DNA from: a virus
IMG/VR virus record: IMGVR_UViG_3300049629_000825
Span: 1-36,983 of that record
DNA length: 36,983 nucleotides
Strand: one strand, 5' to 3'
Below the pieces are notes generated by a model. It did not search any database, was not told where the DNA came from, and saw nothing but the letters and a program-made list of their open reading frames with translations. Numbering within the stretch: position 1 is the first letter of the stretch; each line of letters starts with the position of its first letter. Below, one piece after another: positions 29,531 to 34,270 of the stretch. The position numbers and the translations under genes were made by a program.

Positions 29531-29718
29531 CGTTCACCCATCGTCGCCAGAGCGTCCGCGTGACGGTAGCAAAGCTCTGTGGCGGTCTGACGGCCCACCA
29601 GGGCGCAGAGAGAGCCTAGCGAAGCTTGCAACAGCCCCGTGGCTATCTCGATACGCTCGCCGGGAGTTTCGGCGGCTGCGATCATGCGTTCGGCTTCACA
29701 GACGGACGGGGGGATCAT
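29527..29718 (-). CDS. Small hypothetical protein before the initiator
   Basis: 63 aa. ATG at 29718 overlaps the DnaA-like stop; longer in-frame extensions would run into that gene. Predicted helical: PSVCEAERMIAAAETPGERI, EIATGLLQASLGSLCALVGR and YRHADALATM. No known domain. ATGA overlap with the initiator suggests co-translation and a replication-linked or regulatory role. Confidence 0.6.
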   Translation of the reverse strand: MIPPSVCEAERMIAAAETPGERIEIATGLLQASLGSLCALVGRQTATELCYRHADALATMGER

Positions 29719-30008
29719 GCGGCCCTCGCCAGTTCCCGGCGGGCTTTCGCGCGCCTCACAGCAAAGATGACGGTCGAATGGTCCCGGTCGAAAAACCGCC
29801 CGACCTGGGGAAGCGTCCATTGCCCGGTTTCGACCATCCGGAGCATCGCTTCCTGACGCGGGATGACGGCATCCGGGAACCGGTGACGGCTCCTGATTAG
29901 ATCGGGCTCAACGTCGTAATCAGCGCACACGGCGGCGAAGATTTGCGCCATGGTTGGCTTGATAGGGATACGGCCACGCCAGAGGCTTAGGAGGTAAAGC
30001 TCGCTCAT
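29715..30008 (-). CDS. DnaA domain IV-like DNA-binding protein
   Basis: 97 aa from the ATG at 30008, overlapping the preceding stop. The whole length follows DnaA's C-terminal DNA-binding domain: IFAAVCADYDVEPDLIRSRH (helices 1-2), PRQEAMLRMVET, LPQVGRFFDRDHSTVIFAVR (the 'iGr.fggRDHtTV.hAv' signature that contacts DnaA boxes). No AAA+ ATPase part is encoded here, so it could bind DnaA boxes without acting as an initiator. A competitor of, or helper to, host DnaA is inferred. Confidence 0.8.
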   Translation of the reverse strand: MSELYLLSLWRGRIPIKPTMAQIFAAVCADYDVEPDLIRSRHRFPDAVIPRQEAMLRMVETGQWTLPQVGRFFDRDHSTVIFAVRRAKARRELARAA

Positions 30009-30376
30009 GGCTGCACCCACGCCCTGCCGCGATGGCCGAAAATCAACCGGCCATCATTCAACTGCACCGACGAGGCAAACCCGCCCATGCGGAGGCAAAC
30101 GGCAATGTAAAGCTCATCGCCCGCGCCAAGATCGAACGGCGCGCACCCGTCGCGGGATTGGCCGTCGCTGACGTGACGTTGCGTCACGAGGCCGGGGCCG
30201 GTCGAAACCAAGCCCTCTACATACATTTTCGCGTGGACGGCTTTTTCCGACCGTCCGATGGACTTTGCTACGTCTGCGCAGACAGTCTTACGGTGGCCGC
30301 CCTGGTGGACGCGGGCGCGCAAAACGCCGAGTTCCTCTGACGACCACGGGCCAACGCTGGAGGGCTCAAACCTCAT
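30005..30376 (-). CDS. HTH-containing hypothetical protein
   Basis: 123 aa from the ATG at 30376. The N-terminus (GPWSSEELGVLRARVHQGGH, RKTVCADVAKSIGRSEKAVH, AKMYVEGL) looks like a SANT/GcrA-type helix-turn-helix: charged 'W..eEl..L', then 'vA..lgRs..av..k....gl'. The C-terminal part is beta-rich (GDELYIAVCLRMGGFASSVQ). It may be a small DNA-binding regulator, possibly related to the GcrA-like gene just upstream; function unknown. Confidence 0.6.
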   Translation of the reverse strand: MRFEPSSVGPWSSEELGVLRARVHQGGHRKTVCADVAKSIGRSEKAVHAKMYVEGLVSTGPGLVTQRHVSDGQSRDGCAPFDLGAGDELYIAVCLRMGGFASSVQLNDGRLIFGHRGRAWVQP

Positions 30377-30960
30377 CACGCCACCTTCCGTGCAAAGTTA
30401 GGTTGCGAGAACCCGGCCCAGCTTTTCGGCATGTCGCCGCGCATGACACGGGAATGAGTTTTGCAGTAGGTCGCGCCCTTGGTCGGGTTGCAGCAGGAGC
30501 GCGTATCAGCGCCCTCGCCATCCACCGGGAACGCGCATTCGCCAAACTTGCGAGAGGTCCACACACGGGGCGCTATTGCCACAGAGGCGTCTACCTCACG
30601 GCCATAGGCGCGGGGCTCATGAACAGGGGGAGGGATGACCAGAAGGGCGCCGTTGCCAGCCACGACCAGTTTGAGCTTGGGGCGCTTGAACCCCCGCGCA
30701 TAGGACGGGGCGAGAATAGGCTTTTTGGGTCTGGGAACCGGAAACACCTTAACCGCGTTGTTAGTCTTAGGCGGTGTCGCCTTGCGGCGTGTGGCGTCGG
30801 GCTTCATGGCCCCAATGCGGTGCAGCTTGCCCAGCACGGCGGAACGGGTGACGGTCGGGCCACGAAGGCTCAACAGGTCGGCAATGTCGGTTCCCGACTT
30901 GCCTTCAATCCACCACTGGACGCTCTCGCGCACAATGTCGTCGGTCCATTCAAATGCCAT
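30376..30960 (-). CDS. GcrA-like cell-cycle transcription regulator
   Basis: 194 aa from the ATG at 30960, preceded by AGGTGGGA and overlapping the HNH stop. The N-terminus FEWTDDIVRESVQWWIEGKS and TDIADLLSLRGPTVTRSAVL, GKLHRIG is GcrA's HTH ('WTde.v..l..lW.eG.Sa..IA..lg..TrnaViGKvHRlGL'). The C-terminus FGECAFPVDGEGADTRSCCN and PTKGATYCKTHSRV matches its sigma70-binding Cys/His part. GcrA binds sigma70-RNA polymerase and works at CcrM-methylated GANTC promoters. A phage copy may redirect that system; the linker is longer and Pro-rich. Confidence 0.85.
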   Translation of the reverse strand: MAFEWTDDIVRESVQWWIEGKSGTDIADLLSLRGPTVTRSAVLGKLHRIGAMKPDATRRKATPPKTNNAVKVFPVPRPKKPILAPSYARGFKRPKLKLVVAGNGALLVIPPPVHEPRAYGREVDASVAIAPRVWTSRKFGECAFPVDGEGADTRSCCNPTKGATYCKTHSRVMRGDMPKSWAGFSQPNFARKVA

Positions 30961-31313
30961 CAGGATTCCCACCTTTTCTGAAAGCCCCGGCTTTGCAGTT
31001 TGCGCGTCGGCGCTGGCGCAATGCCGAGGTGTTTTTTACGGGTTCGGTCGGCCTTCGCCCGTTGGGCAACGTCAGCCGCCGTCTTCTCGCGGTGCTTGTC
31101 ACGAAGGGCCGGAAACAGGTTGCTTTCAGCGTGGGCGCCGCCGTTGCAGAGGGCTTGGCGGTGATCCAGGTCCCACTGGTCCCCGGCCATGATCTTGCGG
31201 CCCGTGAGGTGACAGCGGCCCCCTTCACGTTCCCAAATGCGAAGGCGAACCCGAGCGGGGACTTTCGCGTCTGGAGTAGAGCCGATCCACTCAGCGACGG
31301 TGCGTCCGGTCAT
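30960..31313 (-). CDS. HNH endonuclease
   Basis: 117 aa from the ATG at 31313, overlapping the IbrA stop; a GTG two codons upstream is possible. HNH core: CHLTGRKI (about 34-41) in place of a CxxC pair, DLDH (48-51), CNGGAHAESNLFPAL with N65, and KHREKT with H74. Such free-standing small HNH proteins nick or cut DNA, in packaging or mobile-element roles. Here it sits between the IbrA-like and GcrA-like genes rather than near the terminase, so a function tied to the IbrA/B cassette or to replication seems more likely (inference). Confidence 0.8.
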   Translation of the reverse strand: MTGRTVAEWIGSTPDAKVPARVRLRIWEREGGRCHLTGRKIMAGDQWDLDHRQALCNGGAHAESNLFPALRDKHREKTAADVAQRAKADRTRKKHLGIAPAPTRKLQSRGFQKRWES

Positions 31314-32560
31314 GAACACGCCTCCAAGCCTAATGAAAGCTGGTATTCACCAACTCCCCATTCAGCTTTCCGGCGCTTCATAAGGTTAAGATATTTCTTG
31401 TAACCTTCCGACTTGTGCTGCGAAAACCCCATCCCCTTTCCCCAATAGTCATTGCGGAGAAGAGATTTACACACACGGCGCCAAGATGGAGCGCGCCGCG
31501 CCGCTTCCATTTCGTAGTGTGCTTCGTCGGGGATGCCCTCAGGATAACCCCTCGCCATCCACCACTTTTGAAATAGAACGATCTTGTTCTGGTAATGCTC
31601 TTGCGTCTTTGGCGGCATGGAATTGACCAGCAGCGCAGCAAACGTCTGCCACGTGTGGCCAGCGGGTTTGGTAATCCCGCGATAACCATTGATGTTGCCC
31701 CACTCTTGAACGTAGAGCGCACCGCCGTTCGCGCCGTTGACCCTGGCGACGACACGCGCCCACGTCTCCGGCTCGACCAGGTGGAACAGCCACAGTCCCC
31801 GCCGCTGATCGTCGCCGTAGGGCTGACAAATCCGCATGTGCCCCATCGGCACACCGGCCTTGTGCATTAATTCATAGAGGCGGTTATACGGCTTGGCGGG
31901 ATTGGCGGCGTGGTAGGTCCACAGGTCCGCACCCTTCCAGTCATAGATTGGATACGAGTTGTAGACATGTTCCGTGACCTTCGACGTATCGCGCCGACCC
32001 TTCCATGTTTCCTTGCGGGACTGGGCAATGGTCCGAAAGCGGTTCAGGCTTTCATCGCAGCGAATCCCGACAAAGCAGGCCGTCCGCTCGCCTTGCGAAT
32101 ACCATTCGCCAAACAGCGGAACGAACTCCTCAAACTCCATGCCGTCGTGGAAAAACGGATAGAAGGACGGGTCGCTAATGCCTTGTTCCGGTAGCTCCCT
32201 GATCCAGCCATCACGGGCGACGGGATCCCAGCACTTCCAGAACGGCTCATAGACCGAGACGGCGTTGCGAAGGTGGATCGGCAAGCAAACCCAATGCAGA
32301 TCAATCAGGTCTGCATACATGTCGATGCAAACTTGCGCGTGATCCATCGTCAGCTTGTATTGGCCTTCCAGATCGACCAGAAGCAGGCCGAACTTGCGAC
32401 CCCTCTTGCGCGCCTCATCCGCAACAAGGTGCAGCATGACGGTGCTATCCTTGCCCGCCGAAAACGAAAGATAGACGCGCGGGAACTCGTCAAAGGTCCA
32501 GGCGATACGCTGGCGCGCGGCCTCTAGAACGTTAATGCCAATGGGGTTCTTAAGCGCCAT
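31310..32560 (-). CDS. IbrA-like PAPS-reductase-family protein
   Basis: 416 aa, family length. The PP-loop SAGKDS is at residues 34-39 in PRVYLSFSAGKDSTVMLHLV; GLLLVDLEGQYKLTMDHAQV and the C-terminal DUF3440-like part (CFVGIRCDESLNRFRTIAQS, YPIYDWKGADLWTYHAANPA, PSWRRVCKSLLRNDYWGKG) match IbrA. Members share the ATP-pyrophosphatase fold used in sulfate reduction and in DndC-type DNA phosphorothioation. In E. coli IbrA acts with IbrB as a co-activator; the chemistry is unknown. An IbrB-type gene lies two genes upstream. Confidence 0.85.
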   Translation of the reverse strand: MALKNPIGINVLEAARQRIAWTFDEFPRVYLSFSAGKDSTVMLHLVADEARKRGRKFGLLLVDLEGQYKLTMDHAQVCIDMYADLIDLHWVCLPIHLRNAVSVYEPFWKCWDPVARDGWIRELPEQGISDPSFYPFFHDGMEFEEFVPLFGEWYSQGERTACFVGIRCDESLNRFRTIAQSRKETWKGRRDTSKVTEHVYNSYPIYDWKGADLWTYHAANPAKPYNRLYELMHKAGVPMGHMRICQPYGDDQRRGLWLFHLVEPETWARVVARVNGANGGALYVQEWGNINGYRGITKPAGHTWQTFAALLVNSMPPKTQEHYQNKIVLFQKWWMARGYPEGIPDEAHYEMEAARRAPSWRRVCKSLLRNDYWGKGMGFSQHKSEGYKKYLNLMKRRKAEWGVGEYQLSLGLEACS

Positions 32561-32948
32561 GTTGCACCCGCGAAAACAGGTCGGGCGTGCGGGCTTCGTC
32601 CCACTGTTTCAGAACGTCAGCAGCGACCCTGTTGGCCTCGTCTTGCTCGTCTCGGTTTAGGGTATGCCAACCAAGGCGCGTGCATTCTTCAGGAGACGAA
32701 ACGCCGATGCAGCAACCCGCATGACCGAGCCACGCAATCCGGTTAACGTTTTCCGCCGTCAGATTGTGTTCGCAGGACAGGGGCCATTGTTCCAGGGCGA
32801 GCATCATGGCCGAATGAAAAGCCGCCGGGTCGCGCATGAGGTTCGCTGACGCTTGGACAAAGCCCTTGCGCTTCTCACCCCTGACAATGCGCCACATGCC
32901 GTCTTGGAACTCTTCAAGACGCTCATAGTGATGAAACACGCGGGTCAA
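32550..32948 (-). CDS. Uncharacterised protein of the IbrA/IbrB cassette
   Basis: 132 aa between the IbrB- and IbrA-like genes, overlapping both. The TTG at 32948 (overlapping TGA, GGAG 8 nt upstream) is preferred; a GTG at 32939 is possible. Motifs: RLEEFQDGMWRIVRGEKRKG, LMRDPAAFHSAMMLALEQWP, LSCEHNLTAENVNRIAWLGH, AGCCIG, then DEQDEANRVAADVLKQWDEA. Several conserved-looking His, Cys and Trp residues could bind metal or cofactor. I recall similar proteins next to IbrA genes in other phages, but no function is known. Confidence 0.7.
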   Translation of the reverse strand: MTRVFHHYERLEEFQDGMWRIVRGEKRKGFVQASANLMRDPAAFHSAMMLALEQWPLSCEHNLTAENVNRIAWLGHAGCCIGVSSPEECTRLGWHTLNRDEQDEANRVAADVLKQWDEARTPDLFSRVQHGA

Positions 32949-33631
32949 GTGAGCATCTCCAGTTCGGCGCGAATGTCATCGTCCATCAAATTATCGTCTT
33001 CATTGATGGCATCCGGCTCCCAGGCCTCGCTGAACTCCCTATCGGCAAACATTTCCGCAAGCCCAGAGATTTGCGTCAGGCGCAAAACCTCATCTGGGTC
33101 CATGCCCAGGTTCTTGCCGATCTTGTCATCTGACCAATTGCGGCGTTTCAATTCGAGAACGATGTCGCTCATCGCCTCGACTTTGTGCTTACCGCGCGCC
33201 CGGTTGTGGCGAATTGTTGCGGCCATCCGGTCGCCACGATCTGATTGCTCTACACGGATGCAAACGACCGGCAGGTATCCCTGAACGCGCTCTTGAACGT
33301 CTTTGCACTCTTTGCCGACGCGCGTTCTGTGAAACCCGTCAACAACTATGGTTTGATTATCGTCAGTATGCGCGACAATCGGCTGCGTATATCCGTCAGC
33401 CATGATTGAAAGGCGCAACAATTCCATTTCTGGCGGCGCAACGCTATTCGGGTTGTAGTCGTTGGCCTCTACCGTTTCAGACAGTTTCCACAGCACGCAA
33501 TCGACCGGCTCGCTACGGAACGGCGAAACCTCGTGGATTGCTTGGCGAATGTCGTTGATAGCCTCCACACGATCCGCCAAGGGAAGATCGGCTACGCTCT
33601 TTAGAAGCTGCTGCAAGGCTTTCTTGTTCAT
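32945..33631 (-). CDS. IbrB-like ParB-domain protein
   Basis: 228 aa. The N-terminal ParB/Srx-like nuclease domain has NSVAPPEMELLRLSIMADGY (a 'L..SI...G..qPi' segment), VVDGFHRTRVG (98-106, equivalent to the ParB 'GEHRyrA' box) and RHNRARGKHK (141-150), typical of IbrB. A helix-turn-helix (about 157-185, ELKRRNWSDDKIGKNLGMDP) and an acidic tail follow. ParB-type domains bind and hydrolyse CTP or act as nucleases. With IbrA it is probably a two-component functional pair. ATGA overlap with the preceding gene. Confidence 0.85.
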   Translation of the reverse strand: MNKKALQQLLKSVADLPLADRVEAINDIRQAIHEVSPFRSEPVDCVLWKLSETVEANDYNPNSVAPPEMELLRLSIMADGYTQPIVAHTDDNQTIVVDGFHRTRVGKECKDVQERVQGYLPVVCIRVEQSDRGDRMAATIRHNRARGKHKVEAMSDIVLELKRRNWSDDKIGKNLGMDPDEVLRLTQISGLAEMFADREFSEAWEPDAINEDDNLMDDDIRAELEMLT

Positions 33632-33798
33632 CGCCCAAGCTCCAACCGCAGCTTGGCGTTAGTCGCCGCTACCAGGGCCGACCGTGTTTCGTGCTGGCGT
33701 CGGGTGTCGCCTGATTGCAGCGCCCGTTGATGGGCATCCCAAGCGGCTTTGCGGAGCTTGGCGGCTTTAGCGGCGCGGATTTTGCGGAGGAAATTCAT
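33628..33798 (-). CDS. Small basic hypothetical protein
   Basis: 56 aa from the ATG at 33798, with GGAGG-free but tight packing: its stop overlaps the IbrB-like start. Very basic N-terminus (MNFLRKIRAAKAAKLRKAAW), then ALQSGDTRRQHETRSALVAA. Small proteins with a 'GDTR..HE.r.aL..At' phrase are frequent in early operons of alphaproteobacterial phages. Longer in-frame starts would run through the 28-bp hairpin region and are unlikely. Function unknown. Confidence 0.6.
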   Translation of the reverse strand: MNFLRKIRAAKAAKLRKAAWDAHQRALQSGDTRRQHETRSALVAATNAKLRLELGR

Positions 33799-33800
33799 GG

Positions 33801-34007
33801 TTAGCGGCCCTGTCCAAAAAAGGGGCCGCTCGCCTGCTCGACAGAACGAACGGCCCAGTTGGGGGGAGGAAGCCCGCAAGGGCTGGTGGTCGCCTGTGAG
33901 GCGAATGGGTTTGCCGATTGCGCGGCAATCATGGAATCATCACGAGGACGCCACTTGGCGCAGCCCTTGGAGGGCTCAACGTGGAATGTGTGAACGACCC
34001 CCGGCAT
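33801..34007 (-). CDS. Doubtful 68-aa ORF after the Cro-like gene
   Basis: ATG at 34007 is 3 bases after the Cro-like stop, and the TAA ends 2 bases before the next ATG, so it fits the operon spacing. The translation (start MPGVVHTFHVEPSKGCAKWR) is unlike a folded protein in its second half, which includes both arms of a hairpin. This 212-base stretch could instead be an untranslated leader with structure. I list it as possible only. Confidence 0.3.
   Translation of the reverse strand: MPGVVHTFHVEPSKGCAKWRPRDDSMIAAQSANPFASQATTSPCGLPPPNWAVRSVEQASGPFFGQGR
33803..33830. other. 8-bp hairpin before the 56-aa gene
   Basis: AGCGGCCC (33803-33810) and GGGCCGCT (33823-33830) are perfect reverse complements around a 12-nt loop holding an A6 run on the plus strand (T6 on the coding strand). 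On the leftward transcript the stem ends 4 nt before the ATG at 33798, so it could hide that start or act as an early attenuator. Confidence 0.45.
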
Positions 34008-34010
34008 GGC

Positions 34011-34241
34011 TCAGGCGGCCTCACCAGATGCACGGACCAGCGCGACGTCGGCGTTAAGTTCCGAAGCGACAAGAGCGCCCTGCGAAATCCGCTCAAGCTC
34101 CAGCGCAACGCGAACGGAACATTTAGCCTTCCCCTGTTCAATGTCAGAGGCGTGGCCCTTGCTCGACAGGCCAAGCTCCTTGGCAAGTTCTTCAAGGGAC
34201 CAGCCACGGCTGGCGCGAAGTTCTGAAATGGTCATAACCAT
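34011..34241 (-). CDS. Cro-like XRE-family regulator
   Basis: 76 aa from ATG 34241 (or 74 aa from 34235); the longer start at 34262 would lie inside the operator. HTH: TISELRASRGWSLEELAKEL, GLSSKGHASDIEQGKAKCSV. The end RVALELERISQGALVASELN is typical of YdaS/Cro-type proteins. It is the first gene of the leftward early operon and divergent from the repressor, as Cro is in lambdoid phages. No clear ribosome-binding site precedes it, so translation may be leaderless or weak. Confidence 0.75.
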   Translation of the reverse strand: MVMTISELRASRGWSLEELAKELGLSSKGHASDIEQGKAKCSVRVALELERISQGALVASELNADVALVRASGEAA

Positions 34242-34243
34242 TA

Positions 34244-34270
34244 GTTCGGATAATCCGAACACAATGTCAA
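34244..34270. promoter_or_regulatory. Operator O1 and divergent early promoter region
   Basis: GTTCGGATAATCCGAAC (34244-34260) is a perfect 17-bp palindrome apart from its centre, in the 22-base gap between the divergent repressor and Cro-like genes. A consensus -35 TTGACA reads leftward at 34270-34265. In the rightward direction GATAAT (34249-34254) lies 9 bp before the repressor ATG, fitting a leaderless message. Binding here would control both genes. Confidence 0.7.

Follow-up and report, generated by a model that had tools for sequence, protein, structure and literature searches.

The virus record IMGVR_UViG_3300049629_000825, analysed here over its whole length of 36,983 bases (the window), carries on its minus strand three overlapping genes, which are, in the transcription order given by the list of open reading frames (ORFs), ibrB, mid and ibrA (Table 1). 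IbrA and IbrB form a protein pair that has been unexplained for two decades and is carried by numerous phages as well as by E. coli K-12. The initial annotation had described three overlapping ORFs with an intact PP-loop (SAGKDS) and ParB-type motifs (VDGFHRTRVG and RHNRARGKHK), and renewed analysis confirms this layout, with both sets of motifs intact: ibrB and mid share 4 nt (TTGA), and mid and ibrA share 11 nt. The middle gene, mid, is a real and conserved third component of the IbrAB system.

The evidence for this lies mainly in gene neighbourhoods, which support the three-part system that had been proposed for this locus. Both ibrA and ibrB are present in all 142 mid-seeded loci that have at least 3 kb of flank on either side, and across all mid-seeded loci both genes are found in 244 of 251 and at least one of them in 250 of 251. 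By clustering of the other ORFs, the next most frequent neighbour family, helicase-like by sequence, is found in just 19 of 126 nonredundant loci. Four annotated phages were inspected, and in each of these mid likewise lies alongside a gene for a 3'-phosphoadenosine 5'-phosphosulfate (PAPS) reductase-like protein and ParB-like genes. A single ORF encodes both IbrB and mid in 80 loci, with mid as the C-terminal domain. The first 15 of these fusion proteins have diverged to 50–74% mutual identity, one identical pair excepted, which indicates that the fusion is old and maintained.

In one lineage, mid is directly followed by a short separate gene, here called a', whose product corresponds by homology to the final ~75 residues of IbrA (positions 320-395 of the profile) and to the C-terminal end of DUF3440 (PF11922). 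Examples are found at L084:6281-6592, L076:6389-6658 and L019:4263-4577, and in loci with a' the full-length IbrA retains the C-terminal domain too. Four gene orders were seen (B-mid-A, mid-A-B, A-B-mid-a' and mid-a'-A-B), and a quick tree of 99 IbrA sequences implies at least 22 changes of arrangement and 7 changes in the presence of mid, so that the linkage has outlived repeated rearrangement. Throughout these orders the gene after mid is either ibrA (220 cases) or a' (99 cases) in 319 of 319 mid copies, and mid is thus always followed by the IbrA C-terminal domain. Proteins that are naturally fused in some genomes and constantly adjacent in others usually turn out to be partners in one complex.

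As a gene, mid is under purifying selection, with a ratio of nonsynonymous to synonymous substitution rates (dN/dS) of 0.05 against the closest relative (L001), close to those of ibrA (0.04) and ibrB (0.075). This value and the linkage in 142 of 142 loci rule out that mid is a chance ORF or a hitchhiker. It evolves faster than IbrA. No match for mid was obtained in Pfam (where it has no entry), PHROGs, NCBIfam or PADLOC, its relatives likewise gave no convincing family match, and a profile search of the PDB found nothing. A tblastn search places mid in six phage records, spread over four host groups, namely Pseudomonas phage Amjad_SA, Pseudoalteromonas phage XCL1123, Microcystis phage Mwe-JY13 and the Mycobacterium phages Gaia (two records) and Nebkiss. 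The unfused mid of Mwe-JY13 (L018:4001-4426) is annotated as 'ParB/sulfiredoxin', a label probably transferred from IbrB-mid fusion proteins. Searches of viral contigs by pattern and tblastn returned 159, 525 and 279 mid relatives for three sub-alignments, sets that may overlap, and the search of plasmids returned none. The pattern behind the 159 viral contigs gave 1 match in 84,980 species genomes, and the rarity of mid in cells refers to that narrow pattern only; the lone cellular match (L020) is a Planctomycetota metagenome-assembled genome with the arrangement A-B-mid-a'.

The AlphaFold2 model of mid (119 relatives; for this and the other AlphaFold2 model the input alignments were built without rows from phage records) has a mean predicted local distance difference test (pLDDT) score of 94.9 and consists of seven helices and zero strands. 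Compared with the PDB, its best Foldseek probability is 0.14 and its VIA Z scores do not exceed 3.8, the matches being mostly to 14-3-3-like helices and amounting to noise, and in BFVD there is one certain structural match, to a 116-aa viral protein (A0A649V0K8, probability 1.0). The predicted fold is possibly new. The initial annotation had called mid rich in His, Cys and Trp, which holds for the window copy and does not extend to the family, as most His and Cys positions vary among relatives; the best-kept positions are E12, W55, N69, G75, A105 and A109. A role as metal or iron-sulfur protein is not supported, given that C59 is kept in 81% and C79 in 79% of relatives, that H76 is replaced by Gln in 43% and that the model is all-helical.

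IbrA combines a PAPS reductase domain (PAPS_reduct, PF01507, 1.7e-12) with DUF3440 (PF11922, 7e-32) and belongs to PHROG 2302. The motif SxS[AGS]GKDS is present in 297 of 319 relatives, and across 78 nonredundant sequences the invariant residues are G36, K37, D38, S39, D63, E65, G165/R167, E170-S171-L172, R174, Y203-P204, Y206-D207, D212 and W214. In the AlphaFold2 model (78 sequences; pLDDT 85), residues 5-263 form the PP-loop core, whose best structural match is human flavin adenine dinucleotide (FAD) synthase (Z 15.0, root-mean-square deviation 3.7 over 177 residues); matches to adenosine 5'-phosphosulfate (APS)/PAPS reductases (Z 13-14) are tied with it within error, and the C-terminal helical part lies outside all of them. 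An SGGxDS-type PP-loop and this fold (Z 13-15) together identify IbrA as a PP-loop ATP pyrophosphatase. The reductase chemistry suggested by its automatic label is a different matter. The catalytic ECGxH of CysH occurs in 0 of 319 relatives, no Cys is invariant among the 78 nonredundant sequences, the window copy has Gly at the sole column with 90% Cys, and the cysteines of DndC (those of the 4Fe-4S cluster and the cysteine dyad) have no counterpart. Sulfur chemistry is disfavoured because both ECGxH and any invariant cysteine are missing, and the sulfur insertion that the initial annotation noted for PP-loop relatives does not extend to IbrA on the same grounds. Judged by sequence, neither CysH-type PAPS reduction nor a DndC-like cysteine relay is supported, and IbrA, which is usually labelled a sulfur-metabolism enzyme, is almost certainly not that enzyme. 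FAD synthase illustrates that a PP-loop fold can adenylylate its substrate without a reductase cysteine, and adenylylation is the reaction class proposed for IbrA. A distant IbrA-like gene of Microbacterium phage Rasputia (L184) stands at the genome end after glycosyltransferase, acetyltransferase and methyltransferase genes, which may form a modification cluster.

IbrB matches PHROG 2159 ('ParB-like', 6e-71) and no Pfam family; only a fused relative reaches the Pfam ParB_N cut-off. Its profile finds ParB (4umk, E 0.0019) and SbnI (5uje, E 0.09) in the PDB. The GERR form of box II that marks partition ParBs (CTPase clamps) is present in 0 of 324 relatives, and because DG-x-HR is kept and GERR never is, IbrB is grouped with the ParB/Srx nucleoside triphosphate (NTP) binders, apart from partition ParBs. 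According to assays described in PMC12704722, whether such ParB-fold domains bind ATP, CTP or GTP is unpredictable. Both the PP-loop residues of IbrA and the ParB residues of IbrB remain intact among relatives.

Table 1. Features of the ibrB-mid-ibrA cassette and of its surroundings in the window (HTH, helix-turn-helix).
Feature	Position	Strand	Description
ibrB	32945..33631	-	228 aa, ParB/Srx-type protein with C-terminal HTH-like part; ORF and PHROG 2159
mid	32550..32948	-	132 aa orphan, helical; starts at a TTG that shares TTGA with the end of ibrB
ibrA	31310..32560	-	416 aa, PP-loop (PAPS reductase-like) and DUF3440
IbrA PP-loop SFSAGKDS, residues 32-39 (SAGKDS = S34-S39)	32444..32467	-	GKDS invariant in 78 nonredundant relatives
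IbrA C-terminal helical domain, ~residues 317-400	31361..31612	-	homologue is stand-alone a' after mid in another lineage
IbrB DGFHR, GxxR phosphate-binding P motif (box II), residues 98-102	33326..33340	-	DG[aromatic/aliphatic]HR in 324/324 relatives
IbrB TIRHNRARGKH, box III-like, residues 139-149	33185..33217	-	TIRHNRARGxH in 323/324 relatives
Cro-like HTH gene	34011-34262	-	upstream of ibrB, same strand
Short ORF	33628-33879	-	between Cro-like gene and ibrB
HNH endonuclease gene	30960-31319	-	downstream of ibrA, 10-nt overlap with ibrA
GcrA-like gene	30376-30972	-	PF07750, 4.5e-13; directly after HNH gene
DnaA domain IV-like gene	29715-30020	-	Bac_DnaA_C, 7e-15; after GcrA-like gene

The surroundings of the cassette give some indication of its timing and host. 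A replication initiation gene also lies downstream, after the GcrA-like gene, with the DnaA domain IV-like gene, and the early-operon position after Cro that had been assigned to the cassette is plausible from the Cro-like gene upstream and these replication genes; a search for a sigma70-type promoter found none. The DnaA domain IV-like protein stands alone in the phage early region, without the DnaA ATPase part. Because GcrA is an alphaproteobacterial cell-cycle regulator family, the GcrA-like gene suggests an alphaproteobacterial host. The HNH gene is also found in L001 (74% identity) and is not a recurrent neighbour of the cassette. The portal protein of the window is closest to that of Pseudanabaena phage Pam1 (48% identity), and the right-hand half of the window has no nucleotide-level match to any phage record.

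Since hundreds of related phages keep mid beside the pair and sometimes fuse it to IbrB, the three proteins are very probably parts of one machine. In the model favoured here, to which we assign a probability of roughly 0.55, the products of ibrB, mid and ibrA form a single phage complex of three subunits that is driven by nucleotides and uses mid as its adaptor. IbrA would be the PP-loop ATP pyrophosphatase and would activate its substrate by adenylylation, in the manner of FAD synthase and without a cysteine sulfur relay, and IbrB the ParB/Srx-fold NTP-binding subunit whose HTH-like part would bring the complex to nucleic acid. The small helical mid would sit on the C-terminal end of IbrB and dock the C-terminal helical domain of IbrA or a'. 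The target of such a complex, early in infection or in lysogeny, would be nucleic acid of the phage or the host, or else the transcription machinery, and this action would account for the co-activation of prophage genes by IbrAB in E. coli. A nucleic acid target is the leading candidate because DndB and DpdB, which are ParB-superfamily proteins, partner nucleic acid modification enzymes (PMC10853773; PMC12839542), and nucleic acid modification or anti-defence can reasonably be inferred as the role. More tentative is a sharper version with IbrA as a cysteine-free PP-loop adenylyltransferase and IbrB as a ParB-fold NTPase, which together with the helical mid would install a novel modification on nucleic acids or nucleotides; some viral cysH genes would then code for the catalytic subunit.

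Several results weigh against this model or restrict it. The IMG/VR contigs are partly redundant, and the linkage figures are therefore counts of loci and not of independent events. Among the IbrA-seeded viral loci closest to the window, 68 of 80 have mid and 12 do not, and the pairs of E. coli, Streptococcus, Flavobacterium and Fusobacterium phages are without mid even by maximum-sensitivity profile search, which also dismisses the idea that mid was merely overlooked there. Because IbrAB pairs without mid persist, mid is not required by every version of IbrAB; it is an optional but exclusive third component. Mean-field direct coupling analysis of 302 triples (effective number ~136) gave scores between the proteins that did not stand out clearly from the background. 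PP-loop enzymes catalyse several reactions, of which adenylylation is one choice, given that FAD synthase and the APS/PAPS reductases tie as structural matches, and the present results point to no substrate of the complex.

Other readings of the cassette start from the same genes; modification of nucleic acid, plain co-activation and anti-defence are all live candidates for its role. A pure regulator, acting on phage and prophage genes as a nucleotide-gated transcription co-activator or antirepressor and modifying no nucleic acid, would fit the sole reported phenotype, which is that the E. coli pair co-activates prophage eib genes (Sandt 2002, cited in PMC6008420). The HTH-like region of IbrB, the Cro-like gene nearby in the window, the antirepressors near the pair in the E. 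coli phage PhiR5_2 and the regulation to which the homologous K-12 operon ybdNM is itself subject (PMC9068703) agree with this. The HTH-like part, however, is among the best-conserved stretches of IbrB across unrelated phages and hosts, unlike that of phage operator readers, and a strictly conserved PP-loop enzyme core is unnecessary for plain regulation, which makes a purely regulatory role somewhat unlikely. Anti-defence or superinfection exclusion, with the complex either altering or shielding phage DNA or inhibiting a host nuclease, overlaps with the three-subunit model and could be the purpose of that complex. It is in line with the early-operon position, with the near confinement of mid to viruses (159 viral contigs versus 1 cellular contig by one pattern), with the faster evolution of mid relative to IbrA, and with the role proposed for phage ParB-fold fusions in PMC12704722. 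PADLOC 2.0, a library of defence rather than counter-defence systems, has no match for mid or IbrB and only weak DndC/BrxP matches for IbrA, and as an explanation by itself anti-defence appears somewhat unlikely.

The sulfur-based explanations fare worse. DNA phosphorothioation or another sulfur insertion, with a DndC-like IbrA and a DndB-like IbrB, would fit the weak matches of IbrA to DndC (TIGR03183, 7e-5; PADLOC DndC, 7e-7) and the membership of DndB in the ParB superfamily (PMC10853773), but the absent iron-sulfur and dyad cysteines make it improbable, as does the lack of any recurrent neighbour family fit for DndD, DndE or a desulfurase (maximum 19 of 126 loci, in which neighbours were not individually scanned with DndD/DndE models). 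That IbrA is a viral CysH serving sulfur auxiliary metabolism, as automatic annotation has it, is most improbable of all: PHROG 2302/424 and Pfam name a PAPS reductase, and cysH is reported as a widespread viral auxiliary metabolic gene (PMC9301287), but the missing ECGxH, the fixed partners IbrB and mid, which have no known role in sulfate assimilation, and the appended DUF3440 all speak against it.

The natural fusion of mid to IbrB and its constant position against the IbrA C-terminal domain provide a handle for reconstitution and structure work on this long-unexplained pair. The searched libraries and literature yielded no description of a third subunit, the IbrB fusion, the a' gene or the synteny rule. 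There is also a consequence for viral ecology, where the 'cysH/PAPS reductase' of viruses ranks among the globally conserved auxiliary genes for sulfur (PMC9301287). Because the IbrA class, which is without the reductase motif, belongs to a nucleotide-driven cassette, part of the viral sulfur-cycling claims may be misannotation.

Compared with known systems, each protein of the cassette has recognizable kin. IbrA residues 5-263 share their fold with CysH and with the PP-loop domain of yeast and human FAD synthase (Z 13-15), whereas ECGxH separates IbrA from CysH (0 of 319) and a helical C-terminal domain is added. IbrB has the GxxR motif in common with SerK, SbnI, Srx and the orphan ParB-fold NTP binders, together with a weak SbnI profile match, but unlike these it has an additional HTH-like region and fixed partners in IbrA and mid. 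Phage ParB-fold fusions join a ParB-fold domain to a phage-specific domain, as in IbrB-mid, a combination absent from the fusions that the sections of PMC12704722 covered here name. DndC and DndB likewise pair a PP-loop enzyme with a ParB-superfamily partner (PMC10853773); the window cassette differs in that a conserved Cys relay is missing, that clustering of neighbours in 126 loci gave no recurrent family like DndD/E, and that it has a DUF3440 C-terminus and mid as a partner. The nearest relatives are the E. coli and prophage IbrA/IbrB proteins, including YbdN/YbdM of K-12, in which the same pair (PAPS_reduct plus DUF3440 and ParB-like) is encoded by adjacent, co-directional genes, and the copies of PhiR5_2 are 45% (IbrA) and 53% (IbrB) identical to those of the window. 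As IbrAB also exists without mid, the mid-bearing cassette is a variant of this known system: the E. coli pair is arranged A-B without mid, the window places mid between B and A, and relatives fuse it to IbrB.

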